Of a stretch of DNA of 64,000 nucleotides, positions 29,386 through 39,007 are shown piece by piece (the stretch's first letter is position 1; each line of letters begins with the position of its first letter). Where the stretch lies: positions 62,001 through 126,000 of the forward strand of contig MWSW01000005.1 of NCBI GenBank assembly GCA_002050165.1, read 5' to 3'. The notes under the pieces were generated by a model. It saw only the letters and a list, made by a program, of their open reading frames with translations. It was not told the DNA's origin and made no database searches. Source of the DNA: Candidatus Tepidiaquacellales bacterium OLB4/UTCHB1 (GTDB lineage Bacteria > Bacteroidota > Ignavibacteria > Tepidaquicellales > Tepidaquicellaceae). A program made the position numbers and the translations under genes.

Positions 29386-29544
29386 AAACTAAAAAAAGGA
29401 GAAGAAATTTATTAAGTATTTTCGATTATTTTATTAATTTTAATTATTGATATAAAAAATATTTTAACCATTTTTTGAAGATTCCGGAAATGAGAACTTT
29501 AATAAATGGTTTTTTATTTTATCAAGCAAAAATGTCCTTTTGTA

Positions 29545-32500
29545 ATGAATAACCTGAAAATCTTACTTTATATAATACCCTTTCTTATTTTTTCATTTGC
29601 CGGTGATTTAATTGCACAACGTGATGTAAAGAATCCAACGCCATCCAACGAATCAATTTCAGTATCAGATTATAAAATTGTATCATCAGATAGTCGATCT
29701 ATCACGGTTGACTTCACTCCACAATATAATAGTACACTTACTTTTTTAAATTCAGGAATTGAGAATTTTAAACCCGGTAGTCCACAATTATCGCAAAGAA
29801 TATTCCCGGTTTTTCTACCGGTCAGTGAAGGAAACAGGATTGAACTTCTAGATTACAAATATAGAGATATTCAAAATATCGAAGTAAATCCAGTACCCGA
29901 AATTGTAAGGGGAAAAGGAGATATGAGTTTCGACTACAACTATCAAAAGGATAACGGGATTTATTCGACTAATACATTTTTCCCCAAAGATCCGGGTGAA
30001 TTGGTATTTTCAGGTTCCCTCAGAAACAAATATTTCGGTGCGGCAATAATTTCACCCTTACAATATAATCCGGTTACAAGAACACTTCGAAGGTATGAAT
30101 ACATCCGTTTCAGAATTATCTTTGGCGGATCACCGGTTAAATCTAATCGTATTATCTCAAAGGAAGCATATTCATTTTTTAGCAATACGGGACTTAACTG
30201 GAAAGAGGCATTAAACTGGTCAACAGTTCAATTCAATGAAAACAGTGGTTCAGGGATTTCAAACAGTGTACTTGCAAACGGTGATTTTTATAAAATCGAG
30301 ATAAATGAAACCGGTATCTATAAAATTGATAAAACGTTACTCGAGTCCGTAGGAATAAATACCTCTGCTATTGATCCACGTACATTAAAACTTTACGGTA
30401 ACGGTGGGAGAAAATTACCTTTTAAAAATTCTGATCCAGTACCGGAAGACCTGATAGAGAACAGCATTTTCGTTTATGGTGGAGACGATGGTAGTTTTGA
30501 TAATGGCGATTACATCCTATTCTTTGGTAGATCTGTGAGAGACGTTGAGTATAATTATTCTAACCAAAAATTATCACACTACAATAATCCGTTTTCTAAT
30601 TCCAATTATTATTTCCTGACTTATGGTGGGAACCTTGGTTTAAGAATGGAGATTGTTCAATCACCCAATCAACCAAACGTGCCTGAGTTCACCTCTTTCC
30701 CGGAAATCGTTTGGGACGATCCAGACGTTAATAACCTCGGCGCAACCGGAACGCTTTGGTTTAGCCAGCGGATCGGGCTTGGCGAGTCATATATTGCAAA
30801 TAATACACTGCATGGATATTCACCGGGAAGCGAAATTAACCTCGAGTTTAACTTTGGAAACGCTTCAAGTTCAACCACTACTTTTAAAGTAAGCGATGGT
30901 GCAGGATTTAATAACATAACTCAAATCGGTGGAGTTGGCGGTGAATTCGCTCATATAAATGCATACACATTTACGAAGAGTTACAGCCTCCCTTCCGGAA
31001 ATTTATCTGTATTAAAACTTGAAATTCCAACCGGTCAAAATACTTCAACTGCCTCTGCTTATGTTGACTGGTATGATTTAAACTACGACAGAACTTATAA
31101 CAGCGCTGTCAATAATGTTTTTCACTTCAGATCGCCTGATTTAACCGGAATGGGACAATATAAAATTTCAACCTTCTCATCACCGGATATAAGAATTTTC
31201 GATGTATCAGAAAATTTCAATTCGAAAATTATCGTACCCATTTCGTATTCAAATGGGATTGCAGTATTCCAGTCAAACCACAATGCGAATTATTTAAGGG
31301 AATATTTTGCGATTGGTGGCGATAACTATTTAACTCCGAAAAGTATTTCACAAAGAATAGACAATCAAAATTTGCGCGGAATAACTGAAGGCGCAACGTT
31401 CATCATCATTTCACCGAAGGATTTCATGGAGGCAGCATATAAGCTGAAACAACATCGTGAAACACCAGGTGTTGATTACATTAAAACTATTGTTATTGAC
31501 ATAGACCAGATTTATAACGAGTTCAGTGGTGGTTTATTAGATCCGGTTGCGATTAGAAATTTCTTGAAACATGCGTTTTACAATTGGAGCGTAGCACCGT
31601 TTTACGTAATGTTTCTTGGAGACGGAACATACGACTTCAGGAATATTTACAATGTTCCGGTACGGAACTGGTTACCACCAATTCAAACTGACTCCCCTAA
31701 CGTTGATGAAGTTGTCAGTTACCCAAGCGATGATTTCTTTATTGAGTTCAATGAGAATTATGTTGAACCTCAACCCGGCAAACCTGATATGGCTACTGGC
31801 AGGTTGTGCGTTAACTCCCTCGATGAAGCAAATAACGTTGTCCAGAAAATTATTGAATACGAATCAGGTTCCAATAATGGAATTTGGAAAAAAACCAATA
31901 TGTACGTAGCTGACGACGGTTGGACAACCTCGCAGACCGGTGGTGGCGAGGGGAATATTCACACATTCCAATCCGAAATAATTGCAGAAAATATGACTCC
32001 TCCGGACTTTGAGAAACAAAAAATTTATATTGTTACTTATCCCACTACTGTAACGCCACAGGGTAGAAGGAAACCACAGGCGAACGAAGATATTATTAAC
32101 GGCTGGAACGAAGGGAAGCTCGTAATAAATTATGTCGGTCACGGTAGTACTGACCTTTGGGCACATGAACAAATATTTGAGAGACAGACTTCAATTCCCA
32201 GATTAGTAAACAAAGGGAAATATCCGTTCGTAACAATTCCAAGTTGCGACCTTGCCAGATTTGATGATCCGTTCTCACTTAGCGCTGGTGAAGAGCTTGT
32301 AAACATCCGGGAACGTGGCGCAATTGGTGTACTTGCTGCTTCAAGGCCGGTTTACAGCTCTCCTAATGCTGCTTTCAATGAAGCTGTATGGAATCACTTT
32401 ATGAACCTGAAAGATACTCTGAACCTGCCAATCAGAATCGGAAAATCCATTTACCTCGCAAAGCAACTGGTTGGACTTGCAAACAGTAATTCCGCCAAGT

Positions 32501-33600
32501 TCTTTTTACTTTCTGACCCAACCGTGAGGGTTGATATTCCACAATATTTCACGGTTATTGACAGTATTAATAATTACACCGGAAGCGATACCGCAGAAAT
32601 TAAGGCGCTTCAGAAAGTTAAACTATCTGGAAGGATTTTACATCCCGACTCCACATTTTGGAATACGTTCAACGGTTCAATTTCAATAAAGGTTTTTGAT
32701 GTTGAGAGACATATTACTTATTTCGATTTCGGCATTCCGTTCAGGTTCAGACTGGATGGCGGAAAACTGTTCACAGGGAATACAACTGTAGAAAATGGAT
32801 TGTGGACAATTGAATTCGTCGTTCCAAAGGATATATCCTATGCTACCGGAAATGGAAAAATTCTGGCTTATTTCAATAACCAGACAACTGACGGTTCAGG
32901 TTATTCCAATAAGTTTATTCTGAACGGATTGGATACAAATGCTCCGATTGATACCGTCAGTCCGGAAATTGGTCTATTTCTTGGTGATAGAAATTTCAGA
33001 AGCGGCGATATCGTTAATCAAAATACTAAAATCATTGCGGACTTTTACGATGAATCAGGTATAAATCTTACCGGAACCATCGGGCATAAGATAGAGGCAA
33101 TGTTAAATAATGATCCTGACCAGAAGATTGATCTCACAAACTATTATAACTCAACTTCAAATTACCAGAATGGTACTCTTGAATATCCGCTTACAAACCT
33201 GATAGACGGCGATTACAACTTGAAGGTAACTGCATGGGATACATATAACAATTCAGCTTCTGAAACTATTTCGTTCCGTGTTTCAAATAATTCTGAGTTG
33301 GTTCTTGCGGATGTATATAATTACCCTAACCCGATGAGAGATAAAACTGAGTTCATGTTTCAACATAACTTCGACTCTAATATTGACGTTGAAATAAAGA
33401 TTTACACAGTTAGCGGAAGAATGATAAAAGAATTGAATCAATTAAATATTACAGATAAGTTTGTCTCCATACCTTGGGATGGTCGTGATAATGATGGCGA
33501 CGCAATCGCAAATGGAACTTACATTTATCGTATAACTATAAAGACACAAAGCGGCGATTATACCAATACAACAACCGGTAAAATTGCCGTATTAAATTAA
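29545..33600 (+). CDS. porU: PorU-type C25 peptidase, T9SS sortase
   Basis: About 1351 residues from the ATG at 29545; an in-frame ATG at 29506 would put 13 extra residues before the signal peptide. The signal ends near DLIAQ. The C25 (gingipain-like) domain spans ~600-990. Its catalytic His is in NYVGHGSTDLW (codon 32140-32142, residue ~866) and Cys in IPSCDLARFDDP (32245-32247, residue ~901); the 35-residue spacing fits clan CD. The C-terminus is a FlgD/T9SS-like Ig fold (YNYPNPMRDKTEF, ending GKIAVLN). PorU cleaves sorting domains from T9SS cargo and links cargo to the cell surface. porV follows at once. Confidence 0.92.
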   Translation: MNNLKILLYIIPFLIFSFAGDLIAQRDVKNPTPSNESISVSDYKIVSSDSRSITVDFTPQYNSTLTFLNSGIENFKPGSPQLSQRIFPVFLPVSEGNRIELLDYKYRDIQNIEVNPVPEIVRGKGDMSFDYNYQKDNGIYSTNTFFPKDPGELVFSGSLRNKYFGAAIISPLQYNPVTRTLRRYEYIRFRIIFGGSPVKSNRIISKEAYSFFSNTGLNWKEALNWSTVQFNENSGSGISNSVLANGDFYKIEINETGIYKIDKTLLESVGINTSAIDPRTLKLYGNGGRKLPFKNSDPVPEDLIENSIFVYGGDDGSFDNGDYILFFGRSVRDVEYNYSNQKLSHYNNPFSNSNYYFLTYGGNLGLRMEIVQSPNQPNVPEFTSFPEIVWDDPDVNNLGATGTLWFSQRIGLGESYIANNTLHGYSPGSEINLEFNFGNASSSTTTFKVSDGAGFNNITQIGGVGGEFAHINAYTFTKSYSLPSGNLSVLKLEIPTGQNTSTASAYVDWYDLNYDRTYNSAVNNVFHFRSPDLTGMGQYKISTFSSPDIRIFDVSENFNSKIIVPISYSNGIAVFQSNHNANYLREYFAIGGDNYLTPKSISQRIDNQNLRGITEGATFIIISPKDFMEAAYKLKQHRETPGVDYIKTIVIDIDQIYNEFSGGLLDPVAIRNFLKHAFYNWSVAPFYVMFLGDGTYDFRNIYNVPVRNWLPPIQTDSPNVDEVVSYPSDDFFIEFNENYVEPQPGKPDMATGRLCVNSLDEANNVVQKIIEYESGSNNGIWKKTNMYVADDGWTTSQTGGGEGNIHTFQSEIIAENMTPPDFEKQKIYIVTYPTTVTPQGRRKPQANEDIINGWNEGKLVINYVGHGSTDLWAHEQIFERQTSIPRLVNKGKYPFVTIPSCDLARFDDPFSLSAGEELVNIRERGAIGVLAASRPVYSSPNAAFNEAVWNHFMNLKDTLNLPIRIGKSIYLAKQLVGLANSNSAKFFLLSDPTVRVDIPQYFTVIDSINNYTGSDTAEIKALQKVKLSGRILHPDSTFWNTFNGSISIKVFDVERHITYFDFGIPFRFRLDGGKLFTGNTTVENGLWTIEFVVPKDISYATGNGKILAYFNNQTTDGSGYSNKFILNGLDTNAPIDTVSPEIGLFLGDRNFRSGDIVNQNTKIIADFYDESGINLTGTIGHKIEAMLNNDPDQKIDLTNYYNSTSNYQNGTLEYPLTNLIDGDYNLKVTAWDTYNNSASETISFRVSNNSELVLADVYNYPNPMRDKTEFMFQHNFDSNIDVEIKIYTVSGRMIKELNQLNITDKFVSIPWDGRDNDGDAIANGTYIYRITIKTQSGDYTNTTTGKIAVLN

Positions 33601-33625: not shown

Positions 33626-34768
33626 TTGAACATTCAAAAAATTAAAAACAGTGCGCTTCATCTGATATTGATATTTTTATTCATGATAACAGTAATACCT
33701 GATATTTCAGCACAGAATACCAATGCAGTTTCAACCGGTGTTCCATTTCTATTAATCGGGCCAAACTCAAGGTTTTCCGGCATGGGAGAATCCGGAGCCG
33801 GTATTGCAGATGATGCAACTGCCATGCACTGGAATCCCGCCGGTCTATCATTTCAAACCGACAGTGATTTGGAGATTAACTTCACTCACTCTCCATGGTT
33901 AGCTGGTCTTGGTATCGGAGATCTGTTTTATGATTTTGTTGCTTCAAAGAAATATGTACCGGAACTTAACGGTACGTTAGGAGCAAGTCTTACCTACCTG
34001 AATATCGGTGAGATTATTTATACTGACGAACTTGGTAACACTGACCCTTCAAGAAACTACAAGGCGTACGAACTTGCTTTTGCTGTCGGGTACGGAACAA
34101 AGTTATCAAATGACTGGGGAGTCGGAGTTACCACAAGATTTATATACAGCAGACTTTCTCCGGGTGACCTTCAGGTTGGAAATGAACGCGGAACTGGTAC
34201 AGCATTTACAACGAGTTTTGATTTATCTGGAATGTGGCGACCATCAGGCGGACCGAAATTTTTAAAAGATAAATTGTCAATCGGTTTGAACTTATCAAAT
34301 CTCGGTCCAAAGATCTCTTATGTTGACGCTGATCAGGCCGATCCTATACCAACTAATCTTAGGCTCGGGATTGCATATCAGATATTAAAAAATGAAGGTA
34401 ATGAGATCACCTTGGCAGCTGACTTTTCAAAGTTGTTAGTTAACAGATTTACCGACGAAAACGGCAATCCGGCATCCGATCCCTTTTATGAGGCGTTGTT
34501 TACTTCCTGGAAGGGTGGTATAAACGGCATCGGAAAAACTATCCAGTCTTCAATCGGAGTTGAATATTGGTACGGTGCTCCGAGGCTGATTGCACTCAGA
34601 GCCGGCTTCTTTTACGAAGACCCCTCGAACGGTAACAGGCGGTTCATTACCCTTGGCGCAGGTATTAGATATAGCAAATATGGCTTCGATTTCAGCTATA
34701 TTGATGCGCTCGTTGATAATCACCCACTCGCCAATACTCTCAGGTTTGGCTTGATTGCAAATTTCTAA
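33626..34768 (+). CDS. porV: T9SS outer-membrane shuttle protein PorV
   Basis: A 380-residue FadL-like barrel. The start is TTG with GGAGGA 6 bases upstream. A signal peptide ends near PDISAQ. The N-terminus FLLIGPNSRFSGMGESGAGIADDATAMHWNPAGLSF is typical of PorV/LptO, and the last strand ends LRFGLIANF with a C-terminal Phe. PorV carries cargo from the translocon to PorU. Adjacency to porU supports the call. Confidence 0.92.
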   Translation: MNIQKIKNSALHLILIFLFMITVIPDISAQNTNAVSTGVPFLLIGPNSRFSGMGESGAGIADDATAMHWNPAGLSFQTDSDLEINFTHSPWLAGLGIGDLFYDFVASKKYVPELNGTLGASLTYLNIGEIIYTDELGNTDPSRNYKAYELAFAVGYGTKLSNDWGVGVTTRFIYSRLSPGDLQVGNERGTGTAFTTSFDLSGMWRPSGGPKFLKDKLSIGLNLSNLGPKISYVDADQADPIPTNLRLGIAYQILKNEGNEITLAADFSKLLVNRFTDENGNPASDPFYEALFTSWKGGINGIGKTIQSSIGVEYWYGAPRLIALRAGFFYEDPSNGNRRFITLGAGIRYSKYGFDFSYIDALVDNHPLANTLRFGLIANF

Positions 34769-34774
34769 TTTTCC

Positions 34775-34798
34775 GGGGGAGCTGGTCTCCCCCTTTTT
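34775..34798 (+). terminator. Rho-independent terminator after porV
   Basis: A perfect 7-bp G/C-rich stem, GGGGGAG (34775-34781) with CTCCCCC (34787-34793), loop CTGGT, then five T. It lies just after the porV stop and before the M6-like gene, so that gene would need read-through or its own promoter. Confidence 0.85.
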
Positions 34799-34814: not shown

Positions 34815-37800
34815 ATGTTCAGAAATAAATTCTTCCTTGTCATTTTCCTTTATGCTTTCCTATCTCATTCAGTTAAGGCTCAGGAATTAAAAAATTTACA
34901 ATTTGAATTATCACATCCGCTAAAATTCGGTAACGAAAATTCATATTTAACACCACGCTTCGATGTATCGCAAACTGATTCGATTAATGTAGTGGCAATT
35001 CTAGTACAGTTTCAGGAAGACGATAATTCATTCACAACCGGTAACGGAAAATTTGACCTGTCAGATAAATATTATAATGCAACGTTGCAACGCGATACTG
35101 TAATTGACTCCCCGCCTTACGATAGCGCTTACTTTGCGGACCATTTGAAATTTTTAATCAATTATTGGGATAAAGCGTCTGACGGAAAACTAAAGGTGAA
35201 ATTTGATTTACTCGGACAAGTGATTACGCTTCCCAAAAAAATGGAGGAATACTCACCACGGGATAATGAACCTGATTTCAGACGGCTCGGTGATCTCTTT
35301 ACAGATGCATGGACGATCGCTGAACATCAAATTGACTTTTCGCAATACGACCAAAGCAAGACTGCATTCGTCATTTTTCATGCCGGAACGGGTAGAGATG
35401 TTGACCTTAAGTCTGTTCTTGGTTTCGATCCTACTCCGTTTGATTTACCGAGTGTTTATCTTGGGTTGAAAAATTTAAAAGAATTTTATGGAAATACCTA
35501 CGATGGTTATGTCACCAATAGTGGTTTTAAAATTCAAAACTCAATGGTAATTCCATCAAATGAGTTACGTGAACTTGATTTGATAAGTGGTAAATATTTA
35601 TTACGCCTTGGAATAAACGGAATACTCGTCGCAACATTCGGGAGTTACCTTGGATTGCCCGATTTGTTCAATACTCAGACAGGTCGAACTGCAATCGGCA
35701 GATTTGGTTTAATGGATGGCCAATCAATATTTAGTTATAACGGTATATTCCCGCCTGAGCCCTCTGCATGGGAAAAGGTTTATCTCGGATTTAAAGAACC
35801 GATTGTTATTAGTTCAGGTAACCAGTTGTTGAATATCAAAGAATCTTCAACGGGAAACTTCACAGATTCAACTATATTCAAAGTGCTTATCAGCAGTCGG
35901 GAATATTTTTTAATTGAAAATCGCAACCGTGATCCTTATCACAATGGACTTAAAATTTATACCCGTAACCGTTCTTTTAACGATTCAAATGTTTACACTC
36001 AGGATATTTCAGGCTTTGAAAGTTTCAACATTGATAAGATCCGGGGCAATGTTACTGATGTTTCAAATCCTGATTGGTCACTGCCGGGATTAATTAACGA
36101 TACTGCAAACTTCAGAGGTGGAATCCTTATTTGGCATATAGATGAAAATGTGATAGATGAAAATATCTCCAGTAACTCTATTAACAATAACATCAAAAGA
36201 AGAGGCGTATCACTTGAAGAAGCAAAAGGATCTCAAACTATCGGTGTTACCTTCAGTACGCCTTTCGGTGATATTACCGGTGACGGTACGATTTACGATT
36301 ATTGGTTTAAAGGTTACCACGGAGTTCCCGAAACTATATATAAAAATGAATTCACACCTTCTTCAATTCCGAATTCGCTTTCATATTCTCTTGCAAATAA
36401 TTTCATTTATGTAACGGAATTCGATACAATATCACCTTCGATGAATTTCAGAGTGAAAATTGGTTCTGATATAATAAGTCCACTTGCAGGTTTTCCAATT
36501 AGGCTTCCTGTTGACACAACAGGAAATTCACAAGTAATTGCATTCGATTTCATGAATGTTTCGGGCGATCAAATTTTTGCAAATTCGAATAATAACGTTT
36601 ATGGATTCAATCTTAATGGCTCAAGTATTGGTGGAACTGCTGTACTTATTCCTAAGGCAGGTAAATTTATACCGTCAACATTGCGTGGTGAATCTGTAAA
36701 CACTTTATTTGCACTTAGTGACTCTGAATTAAAATCATACAACAGCAACGGTATCTCGAATTCCAGAATATTAAATAGCGGAACAGTATCCGCGCCTTCG
36801 TTAGTAATACAGAATAGAGGAGCTGTCTATCTTGGTTTCAACACCGGTGTGATAAATAGTTACGATCAAAACCTAACCGAAGTTAGGGTTGATTCCATTC
36901 AGGGTTCTGTAATTGCTTTCTCTCAAAATGTAACAGATTCATTTTCGGTTATTAACGGCAATTTTAAATATTTGGTTACGGGAAATATTTCAACTGCTAC
37001 TTCTCAGGATATTCTGACAACGGATTTAAATAACAGATTAATCTTAAACGGTAATCAAATTAAAATATCTTACAACTATTCCGCTATAAATTCATCGCCT
37101 GTACTTGCAGATTTGAACAGGGACGGACGACAAGAAATAATTTTTGTTGCTGACAGTACAATTTTTGCAATTAACTCTAACGGTGTTCTGGTTGATAACT
37201 TCCCTATCAACTTTGACCGGAATATTTCATCCGGAATAAGTGTGGCCGATATAAATGACGATGGTATCTCCGAGTTACTTTTTGTAACATCAGACGGCAA
37301 TCTTTACGCTTACGGTGTAAACGGGAAAATATTAAATGGATTTCCACTGCTTGTTTCCTCTAAAACAATTTCTACTCCTGCAATATTAAATGCAGATGGA
37401 TACTTTGGTCTGGCCGTTTTGGGTAACGATGGATTTCTTTACGCCTTCAGAACTAATCATCAATACAAACCTGAAAATGTGTATTGGAAAAATTATCTGG
37501 GTAACGAATCATTATCCAATCATAATTACACAGGAAATGCACATTCACCCGGCTTTACGAGTAAATTACCTGAATCTAAGGTATATAATTGGCCAAATCC
37601 GGTTTATGATGGAAAAACTTATATTCGGTATTTCATTAATGGAATTGCCTCTGACGTGAAAATAAAAATCCTTGACCTCTCCGGTGAACTTGTAACAGAA
37701 CTTAACGGACCGGCATTTTCCAATTCAGAAAACGAGATCCTCTGGGATGCAGGCAATGTTCAGAGTGGCGTGTACTATGGCGTGATAACTGCAAATATTG

Positions 37801-37847
37801 ATGGTTCCGAAGTAACGAGAATTATTAAAATTGCTGTTGTAAAATAA
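34815..37847 (+). CDS. M6-like secreted protein with degenerate zinc motif, FG-GAP repeats and T9SS-like tail
   Basis: About 1010 residues from the ATG at 34815. The signal ends near SVKAQ. The M6 (immune inhibitor A-like) domain spans ~45-400, with FVIFHAGTGRD and GLMDG...SAWEKVYLGF landmarks. At the zinc site, where M6 enzymes have HEFGH before YLGLPDL, this protein has ATFGS (residues ~273-277), so both His and the Glu are lost. Later repeats resemble FG-GAP/VCBS blades (ADLNRDGRQEIIFVAD, ADINDDGISELLFVTSDG). The last ~85 residues form a T9SS-like sorting domain (YNWPNPVYDGKTYIRYF). It is probably surface-exposed and non-proteolytic. Confidence 0.82.
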   Translation: MFRNKFFLVIFLYAFLSHSVKAQELKNLQFELSHPLKFGNENSYLTPRFDVSQTDSINVVAILVQFQEDDNSFTTGNGKFDLSDKYYNATLQRDTVIDSPPYDSAYFADHLKFLINYWDKASDGKLKVKFDLLGQVITLPKKMEEYSPRDNEPDFRRLGDLFTDAWTIAEHQIDFSQYDQSKTAFVIFHAGTGRDVDLKSVLGFDPTPFDLPSVYLGLKNLKEFYGNTYDGYVTNSGFKIQNSMVIPSNELRELDLISGKYLLRLGINGILVATFGSYLGLPDLFNTQTGRTAIGRFGLMDGQSIFSYNGIFPPEPSAWEKVYLGFKEPIVISSGNQLLNIKESSTGNFTDSTIFKVLISSREYFLIENRNRDPYHNGLKIYTRNRSFNDSNVYTQDISGFESFNIDKIRGNVTDVSNPDWSLPGLINDTANFRGGILIWHIDENVIDENISSNSINNNIKRRGVSLEEAKGSQTIGVTFSTPFGDITGDGTIYDYWFKGYHGVPETIYKNEFTPSSIPNSLSYSLANNFIYVTEFDTISPSMNFRVKIGSDIISPLAGFPIRLPVDTTGNSQVIAFDFMNVSGDQIFANSNNNVYGFNLNGSSIGGTAVLIPKAGKFIPSTLRGESVNTLFALSDSELKSYNSNGISNSRILNSGTVSAPSLVIQNRGAVYLGFNTGVINSYDQNLTEVRVDSIQGSVIAFSQNVTDSFSVINGNFKYLVTGNISTATSQDILTTDLNNRLILNGNQIKISYNYSAINSSPVLADLNRDGRQEIIFVADSTIFAINSNGVLVDNFPINFDRNISSGISVADINDDGISELLFVTSDGNLYAYGVNGKILNGFPLLVSSKTISTPAILNADGYFGLAVLGNDGFLYAFRTNHQYKPENVYWKNYLGNESLSNHNYTGNAHSPGFTSKLPESKVYNWPNPVYDGKTYIRYFINGIASDVKIKILDLSGELVTELNGPAFSNSENEILWDAGNVQSGVYYGVITANIDGSEVTRIIKIAVVK

Positions 37848-37906: not shown

Positions 37907-39007
37907 ATGGAAATATTCATTTCAGTATTTTTTATAACTTACCTCGCACTCCATCTTTACTTTCTAAAAGGATTGCGAATTTCAACTACATTAGAAAAAT
38001 TTTCATTAAAGAATCCTCCCTCAGTCAGCCTGATTGTAGCTGCAAAAAATGAAAAGGATGTAATTGCAAGATGTATTCAATCGCTGAAAGAAATTAAATA
38101 TGAAGGTACACTCGAAATCATACTCGTAAATGATAAATCTGACGATAACACAAAGGAGATTATGATTAAAGAATCTCAGGGTGATAGCCGAATAAAAGTA
38201 ATAGACTCTAACCGTACCGAAACATCAAACTTGAAAGGAAAGGCGAACGCACTTGATACTGCAATCAGACTCTGCCGTGGCGAGATAGTCATAACAACTG
38301 ACGCTGATTGTACGGTTCAAAGCGAATGGGTGAAATCTATGTCATCTTACTATGATACTTCAACTGCAATGGTTAACGGGTTCACAACAATCGATACAAA
38401 TCAAAAGTTGTTCGATAAACTTCAGGCTTTGGATTTTATTTATTTGCTTTCACTGGCATCATCGAGTTGTGGGATCGGGCGAATTCTTAGTTGTATCGGA
38501 AATAATATTTCATTTCGAAAAGATATCTACATGCAACTCGGCGGTTTCGAAAAAATCGGATTCTCAGTTACAGAAGACCTCGCATTAATGAGGGCTATTG
38601 ACTCAATTAAAAATGTTAAGATAAAATTCCCTACAGATGATAGAAATGTGGTAACTTCACAACCCTGCGCGGATTTGCGAGCTCTTTTCAATCAGAAAAA
38701 ACGCTGGTTCAGAGGTGGATTGGGAATCAGACCATTTGGATATATTACCGGGATTGAATTGTATATCGCAAATCTTTATTTACTCACAGGAATTTTCTTC
38801 ACACCTCCCGCATTCTATTTCACAATGGTTGGAATAAAGTTTGTCTCCGAATTGATTCTTCTAATACCGCTTTTGAAAATATATAAAAGTACCGGATTGT
38901 TGAAATATTTTATTCACTTCCAAATTTATTTCGCTTTATATGGACTTTTACTGCCGTTTACGTTTGTTTTAGGGAATAAAATTAAATGGAAGGGACGGAA
39001 ATATTAA
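37907..39007 (+). CDS. Family 2 membrane glycosyltransferase
   Basis: A 366-residue processive-type GT2. One N-terminal and about three C-terminal membrane segments flank a GT-A domain with LIVAAKNEKDVIARCI, VNDKSDDNT, the metal motif TDADC and the acceptor motif QKKRW. Such proteins use nucleotide sugars to make glycolipids or polysaccharide. The substrate is unknown. Its stop overlaps the stop of the convergent gene at 39004 by 4 bases. Confidence 0.88.
   Translation: MEIFISVFFITYLALHLYFLKGLRISTTLEKFSLKNPPSVSLIVAAKNEKDVIARCIQSLKEIKYEGTLEIILVNDKSDDNTKEIMIKESQGDSRIKVIDSNRTETSNLKGKANALDTAIRLCRGEIVITTDADCTVQSEWVKSMSSYYDTSTAMVNGFTTIDTNQKLFDKLQALDFIYLLSLASSSCGIGRILSCIGNNISFRKDIYMQLGGFEKIGFSVTEDLALMRAIDSIKNVKIKFPTDDRNVVTSQPCADLRALFNQKKRWFRGGLGIRPFGYITGIELYIANLYLLTGIFFTPPAFYFTMVGIKFVSELILLIPLLKIYKSTGLLKYFIHFQIYFALYGLLLPFTFVLGNKIKWKGRKY

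Follow-up and report, generated by a model that had tools for sequence, protein, structure and literature searches.

A catalytically dead M6-type peptidase beside porV and its genomic companion, an intact metalloprotease, in Bacteroidota outside Bacteroidia

Introduction

Why should a bacterium keep a secreted peptidase-like protein that has lost its zinc-binding motif, and why beside the genes for the sortase and shuttle of the T9SS? The question is raised by a gene, here called M6i, in a stretch of 64,000 nucleotides from Candidatus Tepidiaquacellales bacterium OLB4/UTCHB1 (contig MWSW01000005.1, positions 62,001 to 126,000; hereafter the window, whose numbering is used unless another contig is named). 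A preliminary description of this DNA took the retained fold as a sign of selection for a binding or structural role, perhaps linked to PorU and PorV. T9SS biology is based largely on Porphyromonas and Flavobacterium. Here we examine M6i in the window and across the phylum.

Results

Both upstream neighbors of M6i have the identities first given to them. PorU, the T9SS sortase (C25), is encoded on the forward strand at 29506-33600 and scores 926 bits against NF033707 (cut-off 420), and PorV, the T9SS shuttle, is encoded at 33626-34768 on the same strand and scores 280 bits against NF033710 (cut-off 250). The window genome has two further C25 proteins of about 1620 residues (L109 and L113; G000:C2:92873-95359 and 85298-87856), which are PorU2-like and lie below the cut-off of that family, at 346-354 versus 450 bits.

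M6i itself (34815-37847, forward strand) is open throughout its 1010 codons, so the gene is intact as stated earlier, and the full-length AlphaFold model has a pLDDT of 90.5. The 1010-residue product, a T9SS-type secreted pseudo-M6 peptidase, opens with a probable Sec signal peptide (34815-34880) that forms helix 2-21 in the model and would be cleaved after SVKA, before Q. An M6-like domain with a beta-rich extension follows (residues 45-560, 34947-36494), and then a beta-propeller region (residues 561-915, 36495-37559), the least conserved folded part of the protein in the family alignment (0.32). The FG-GAP-like blades already recognized in this region are recovered by Pfam FG-GAP_3, above its cut-off in the full protein, and by Foldseek propeller matches. 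The putative C-terminal T9SS-type domain (CTD; residues 916-1010, 37560-37844), the T9SS-like tail of the preliminary description, is all-beta in the model, and its profile matches the CTDs of PorU (6za2) and PorZ (5m11) in the PDB; Por_Secre_tail (PF18962) falls just short, at 24.6 bits against a cut-off of 27.

The zinc site has been lost as described, with ATFGS in place of HEFGH at codons 35631-35645 (residues 273-277), followed by the landmark YLGLPDL at 35646-35666. In the full-length model, helix 268-278 (NGILVATFGSY, 35616-35648) occupies the place of the zinc-binding helix. The adjacent segment, LGLPDLFN...IGRFGLMDG (residues 279-303, 35649-35723), is among the most conserved parts of M6i (mean 0.85) and retains D283, the GLPD aspartate at the third M6 ligand position, which is invariant in all 64 aligned members. 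A scan of the whole window protein found no HExxH and not even one HE dipeptide, which rules out another such motif aligning to the site.

The M6 fold claimed for the protein is well supported. Searched alone, the M6 domain matches Pfam Peptidase_M6 at 24.5 bits (cut-off 22). TIGR03296 (M6dom) matches 64 of 64 M6i members, with the window protein below the cut-off of the model (74 versus 110.8 bits). Since Foldseek matches of the full-length protein were swamped by propellers, we modeled residues 45-560 separately (pLDDT 93.2), and the top three PDB matches were all immune inhibitor A2 (InhA2; 4yu6/4yu5, E 8e-15 to 3e-14), followed by ADAM-type metzincins. This structural comparison, which the preliminary description had proposed, removes the doubt that the domain is M6; a sequence search of the PDB with the M6-domain profile returned no M6 match. 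M6i shares with InhA2 the fold, the active-site helix and the GLPD aspartate, but lacks HExxH and carries in addition a propeller and a T9SS-type CTD. With the M6 fold present and HExxH missing, the window protein is by motif not an active peptidase of this family.

Against NCBIfam release 20, M6i scores 823 bits with NF052323 (cut-off 600, model positions 4-1043) and is, as judged by this profile, a full-length member of that family, the 'T9SS-dependent M6-like inactivated metalloprotease'. The dead M6 site is thus not new, as the name given by the NCBI curators already states the inactivation. Our search of the literature on M6, pseudoproteases and Ignavibacterium with PorU found no paper on M6i.

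M6i is present in 152 of 395 genomes of the phylum and in 40 of 40 near relatives, and is single copy and near-universal in the lineage; the sampled genomes are mostly metagenome assemblies. None of 92 full-length orthologues has HExxH at the dead site, where the family consensus reads NGLLxASxGSxLGLPDLFNT, and a single chance HExxH away from the site occurs in one of them. Pairwise dN/dS, for pairs with usable dS, is 0.02-0.08, indicating strong purifying selection; among the most similar pairs the dead site has a dN close to zero. The alignment and the dN/dS values, both called for at the outset, show that the loss is lineage-wide and the fold maintained. The loss of HExxH is old and shared across the family. 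Together with the position of porV, which lies directly 5' of M6i in nearly all loci across the phylum, these data back the early suggestion of selection for a non-catalytic role. One family (f28) has a short M6i of about 860-890 residues with a reduced propeller and an intact CTD (L082:8028-10616).

The strongest partner of M6i lay outside the view of the preliminary description. It is an intact metalloprotease of 1030-1170 residues without a family name, which we call MA; no NCBIfam equivalog model scores above its cut-off for it. Its Pfam domains are Peptidase_MA_2 and PD40, and it carries a TolB-like propeller. Of 81 rows in the alignment, 80 have HExxH and a downstream E, and one is a gap. 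The C-terminal stretch, over which Pfam gave no match, is probably an outer-membrane barrel, to judge from its sequence. Outside the window's order, 87 loci have room for MA 3' of M6i; it occupies that place in the same orientation in 83 of them, and in 70 of the 87 it lies within 250 bases of M6i. The two genes are linked in 0 of 21 cases in the window's order; the MA gene of the window genome (G000:C12:45357-48503) is divergent from sprA and about 170 bases away from it, and in all six genomes examined in the window's family the MA gene adjoins sprA divergently.

M6i and MA have exactly the same distribution. Both occur in 152 of the 395 genomes and neither in 243, and no genome has one alone. 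The pattern was first met in 53 hand-picked genomes and then checked on the full 395. The phylum search for MA used the MA alignment and yielded a list of 152 genomes identical to that for M6i; the lists were copied manually for this comparison, and for both proteins a wide gap separates the scores counted as present from those counted as absent. Both genes are still present where they are unlinked, that is, in the window's order and in families f24 and f39. These unlinked families weigh more for the pair than do the joint losses in family f32, perhaps the Balneolaceae, where the pair is missing three times, always jointly, on the PorV tree: in f32 M6i and MA adjoin, one deletion could explain each joint loss, and three co-losses are weak alone. 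Strong correlations link the evolutionary distances of M6i, MA, PorV and PorU throughout, and the partial distance correlations of M6i (a modest 0.44 with MA, 0.36 with PorU) do not by themselves single out MA. Two f40 genomes, G239 and G360, have PorU above cut-off and lack both M6i and MA, which are both present in G085 of the same genus; either the two genes were lost together in a separate event, or the assemblies have a gap here.

The pair is independent of the sortase PorU. Fourteen f32 genomes with completeness of 95-100% have no PorU and retain M6i, PorV and SprA, so that of the two links suggested for M6i the one to PorV stands, through adjacency, and the one to PorU is unneeded. We found no C25 peptidase of any kind in these 14 genomes, and PorZ is absent or marginal in them. 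PorU2 (NF052324), considered as a substitute sortase, was found in none of the 12 tested, and the 12 tested for CTDs have 5-32 matches per genome; PorV, SprA and CTD proteins thus persist beside M6i in PorU-less genomes. On the PorV tree the PorU losses in the f32 set, in which PorV, M6i and MA were retained, fall in about three separate places. PorU and PorV without M6i are also common, in f30 and in f6, f7, f9 and f11 of the window's class.

Four further near-complete genomes (L200, L201, L202 and L206; G227, G250, G151 and G286) have SprA, PorV and CTD proteins, and have neither PorU, a C25 peptidase, M6i nor MA. They apparently have a T9SS without any of these proteases, from which it follows that the M6i-MA pair is dispensable.

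Discussion

The best reading of these observations is that M6i is an old, catalytically dead M6 peptidase that serves as a non-catalytic part of the T9SS in Bacteroidota outside Bacteroidia. Its exact co-occurrence with MA leads us further, to a pseudopeptidase-peptidase pair accessory to the T9SS in these bacteria, a proposal that we hold to be about evenly balanced between right and wrong. M6i would be exported by Sec and then by the T9SS and would remain close to PorV on the cell surface. Clients, or MA itself, may be held by the empty cleft and propeller of M6i; MA would thereby be correctly placed to cut or mature proteins that are secreted or belong to the outer membrane. The steering of MA by M6i is modeled here on the pseudoprotease iRhom, which acts for ADAM17. 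To the extent that we draw on that system, the likeness is one of concept only, namely that an inactive relative of a protease steers an active metalloprotease at the surface: M6i and MA are bacterial and without homology to it, and their interaction is a proposed one. A bolder version, in which the two proteins are an undescribed T9SS proteolytic module and M6i-guided MA replaces the sortase in processing secreted proteins in PorU-less Bacteroidota, seems to us improbable.

Two other accounts of a non-catalytic M6i have to be weighed against the pair. M6i could be a member of the PorV/PorU attachment complex that handles CTD cargo in the manner of PorZ or PorQ, with MA merely co-inherited. 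Like PorZ and PorU in the Porphyromonas gingivalis complex, M6i would combine a beta-propeller with a CTD at the T9SS outer membrane; the resemblance of its CTD to theirs, the adjacency of porV and M6i nearly everywhere and the partial correlation with PorU all speak for such a role. Yet M6i differs in having an M6-like domain, it is retained in the 14 genomes where PorU is gone and PorZ absent or marginal, and it is the distribution of MA, not that of PorU, that is identical to its own. Most genomes with M6i also have the PorZ N-domain; M6i therefore coexists with PorZ, and the narrower idea that it substitutes for PorZ is ruled out. On balance we regard membership of the attachment complex as possible but rather unlikely. 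M6i might instead be ordinary conserved cargo, a surface binding protein that gave up catalysis and has no role in secretion. T9SS cargo is typically built of a signal peptide, a propeller and a CTD, as M6i is, and the window's genome has about 115 CTD matches, but a single-copy, near-universal gene fixed beside porV is unlike typical cargo, and the exact co-occurrence with MA also argues against this account, which we judge unlikely.

There is very little to recommend the idea that M6i retains some peptidase activity through another metal or other residues. In the family alignment H189 and D283 are invariant and H441 nearly so, as such an activity might require, but all 92 sequences have other residues in place of the catalytic E and the two histidines of the helix, and we take the H189 and H441 segments to be motifs common to M6-like proteins, not a site built anew.

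What is new here, relative to a family name that records the inactivation and makes no mention of an MA partner or of independence from PorU, is the exact companion of M6i and the independence of the two from the sortase. The accessory subunits of BAM in the F. johnsoniae structure (PMC12611786) were considered as relatives of M6i or MA and are unrelated. In the lineages sampled outside Bacteroidia, 152 genomes carry the pair, either within the porV operon or at another site, which in the window's family adjoins sprA; a module preserved in other lineages may thus be absent from the Porphyromonas and Flavobacterium models. The natural sortase-less cases, in which secretion parts are left, open T9SS function without PorU to testing.

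In the window's own family the immediate surroundings of M6i have two further features. Between porV and M6i (34775-34793, forward strand) lies a hairpin that resembles a terminator and has a T run, and most of the same-family relatives listed have a hairpin of other sequence at the same place; given this hairpin, M6i may be transcribed separately or with attenuation in the family. On the 3' side, a glycosyltransferase-like protein of 366 residues is encoded on the same strand (37907-39007), and a gene of near-equal length (367 residues) follows M6i in L107; the glycosyltransferase-like gene may be part of a local cluster in this family.
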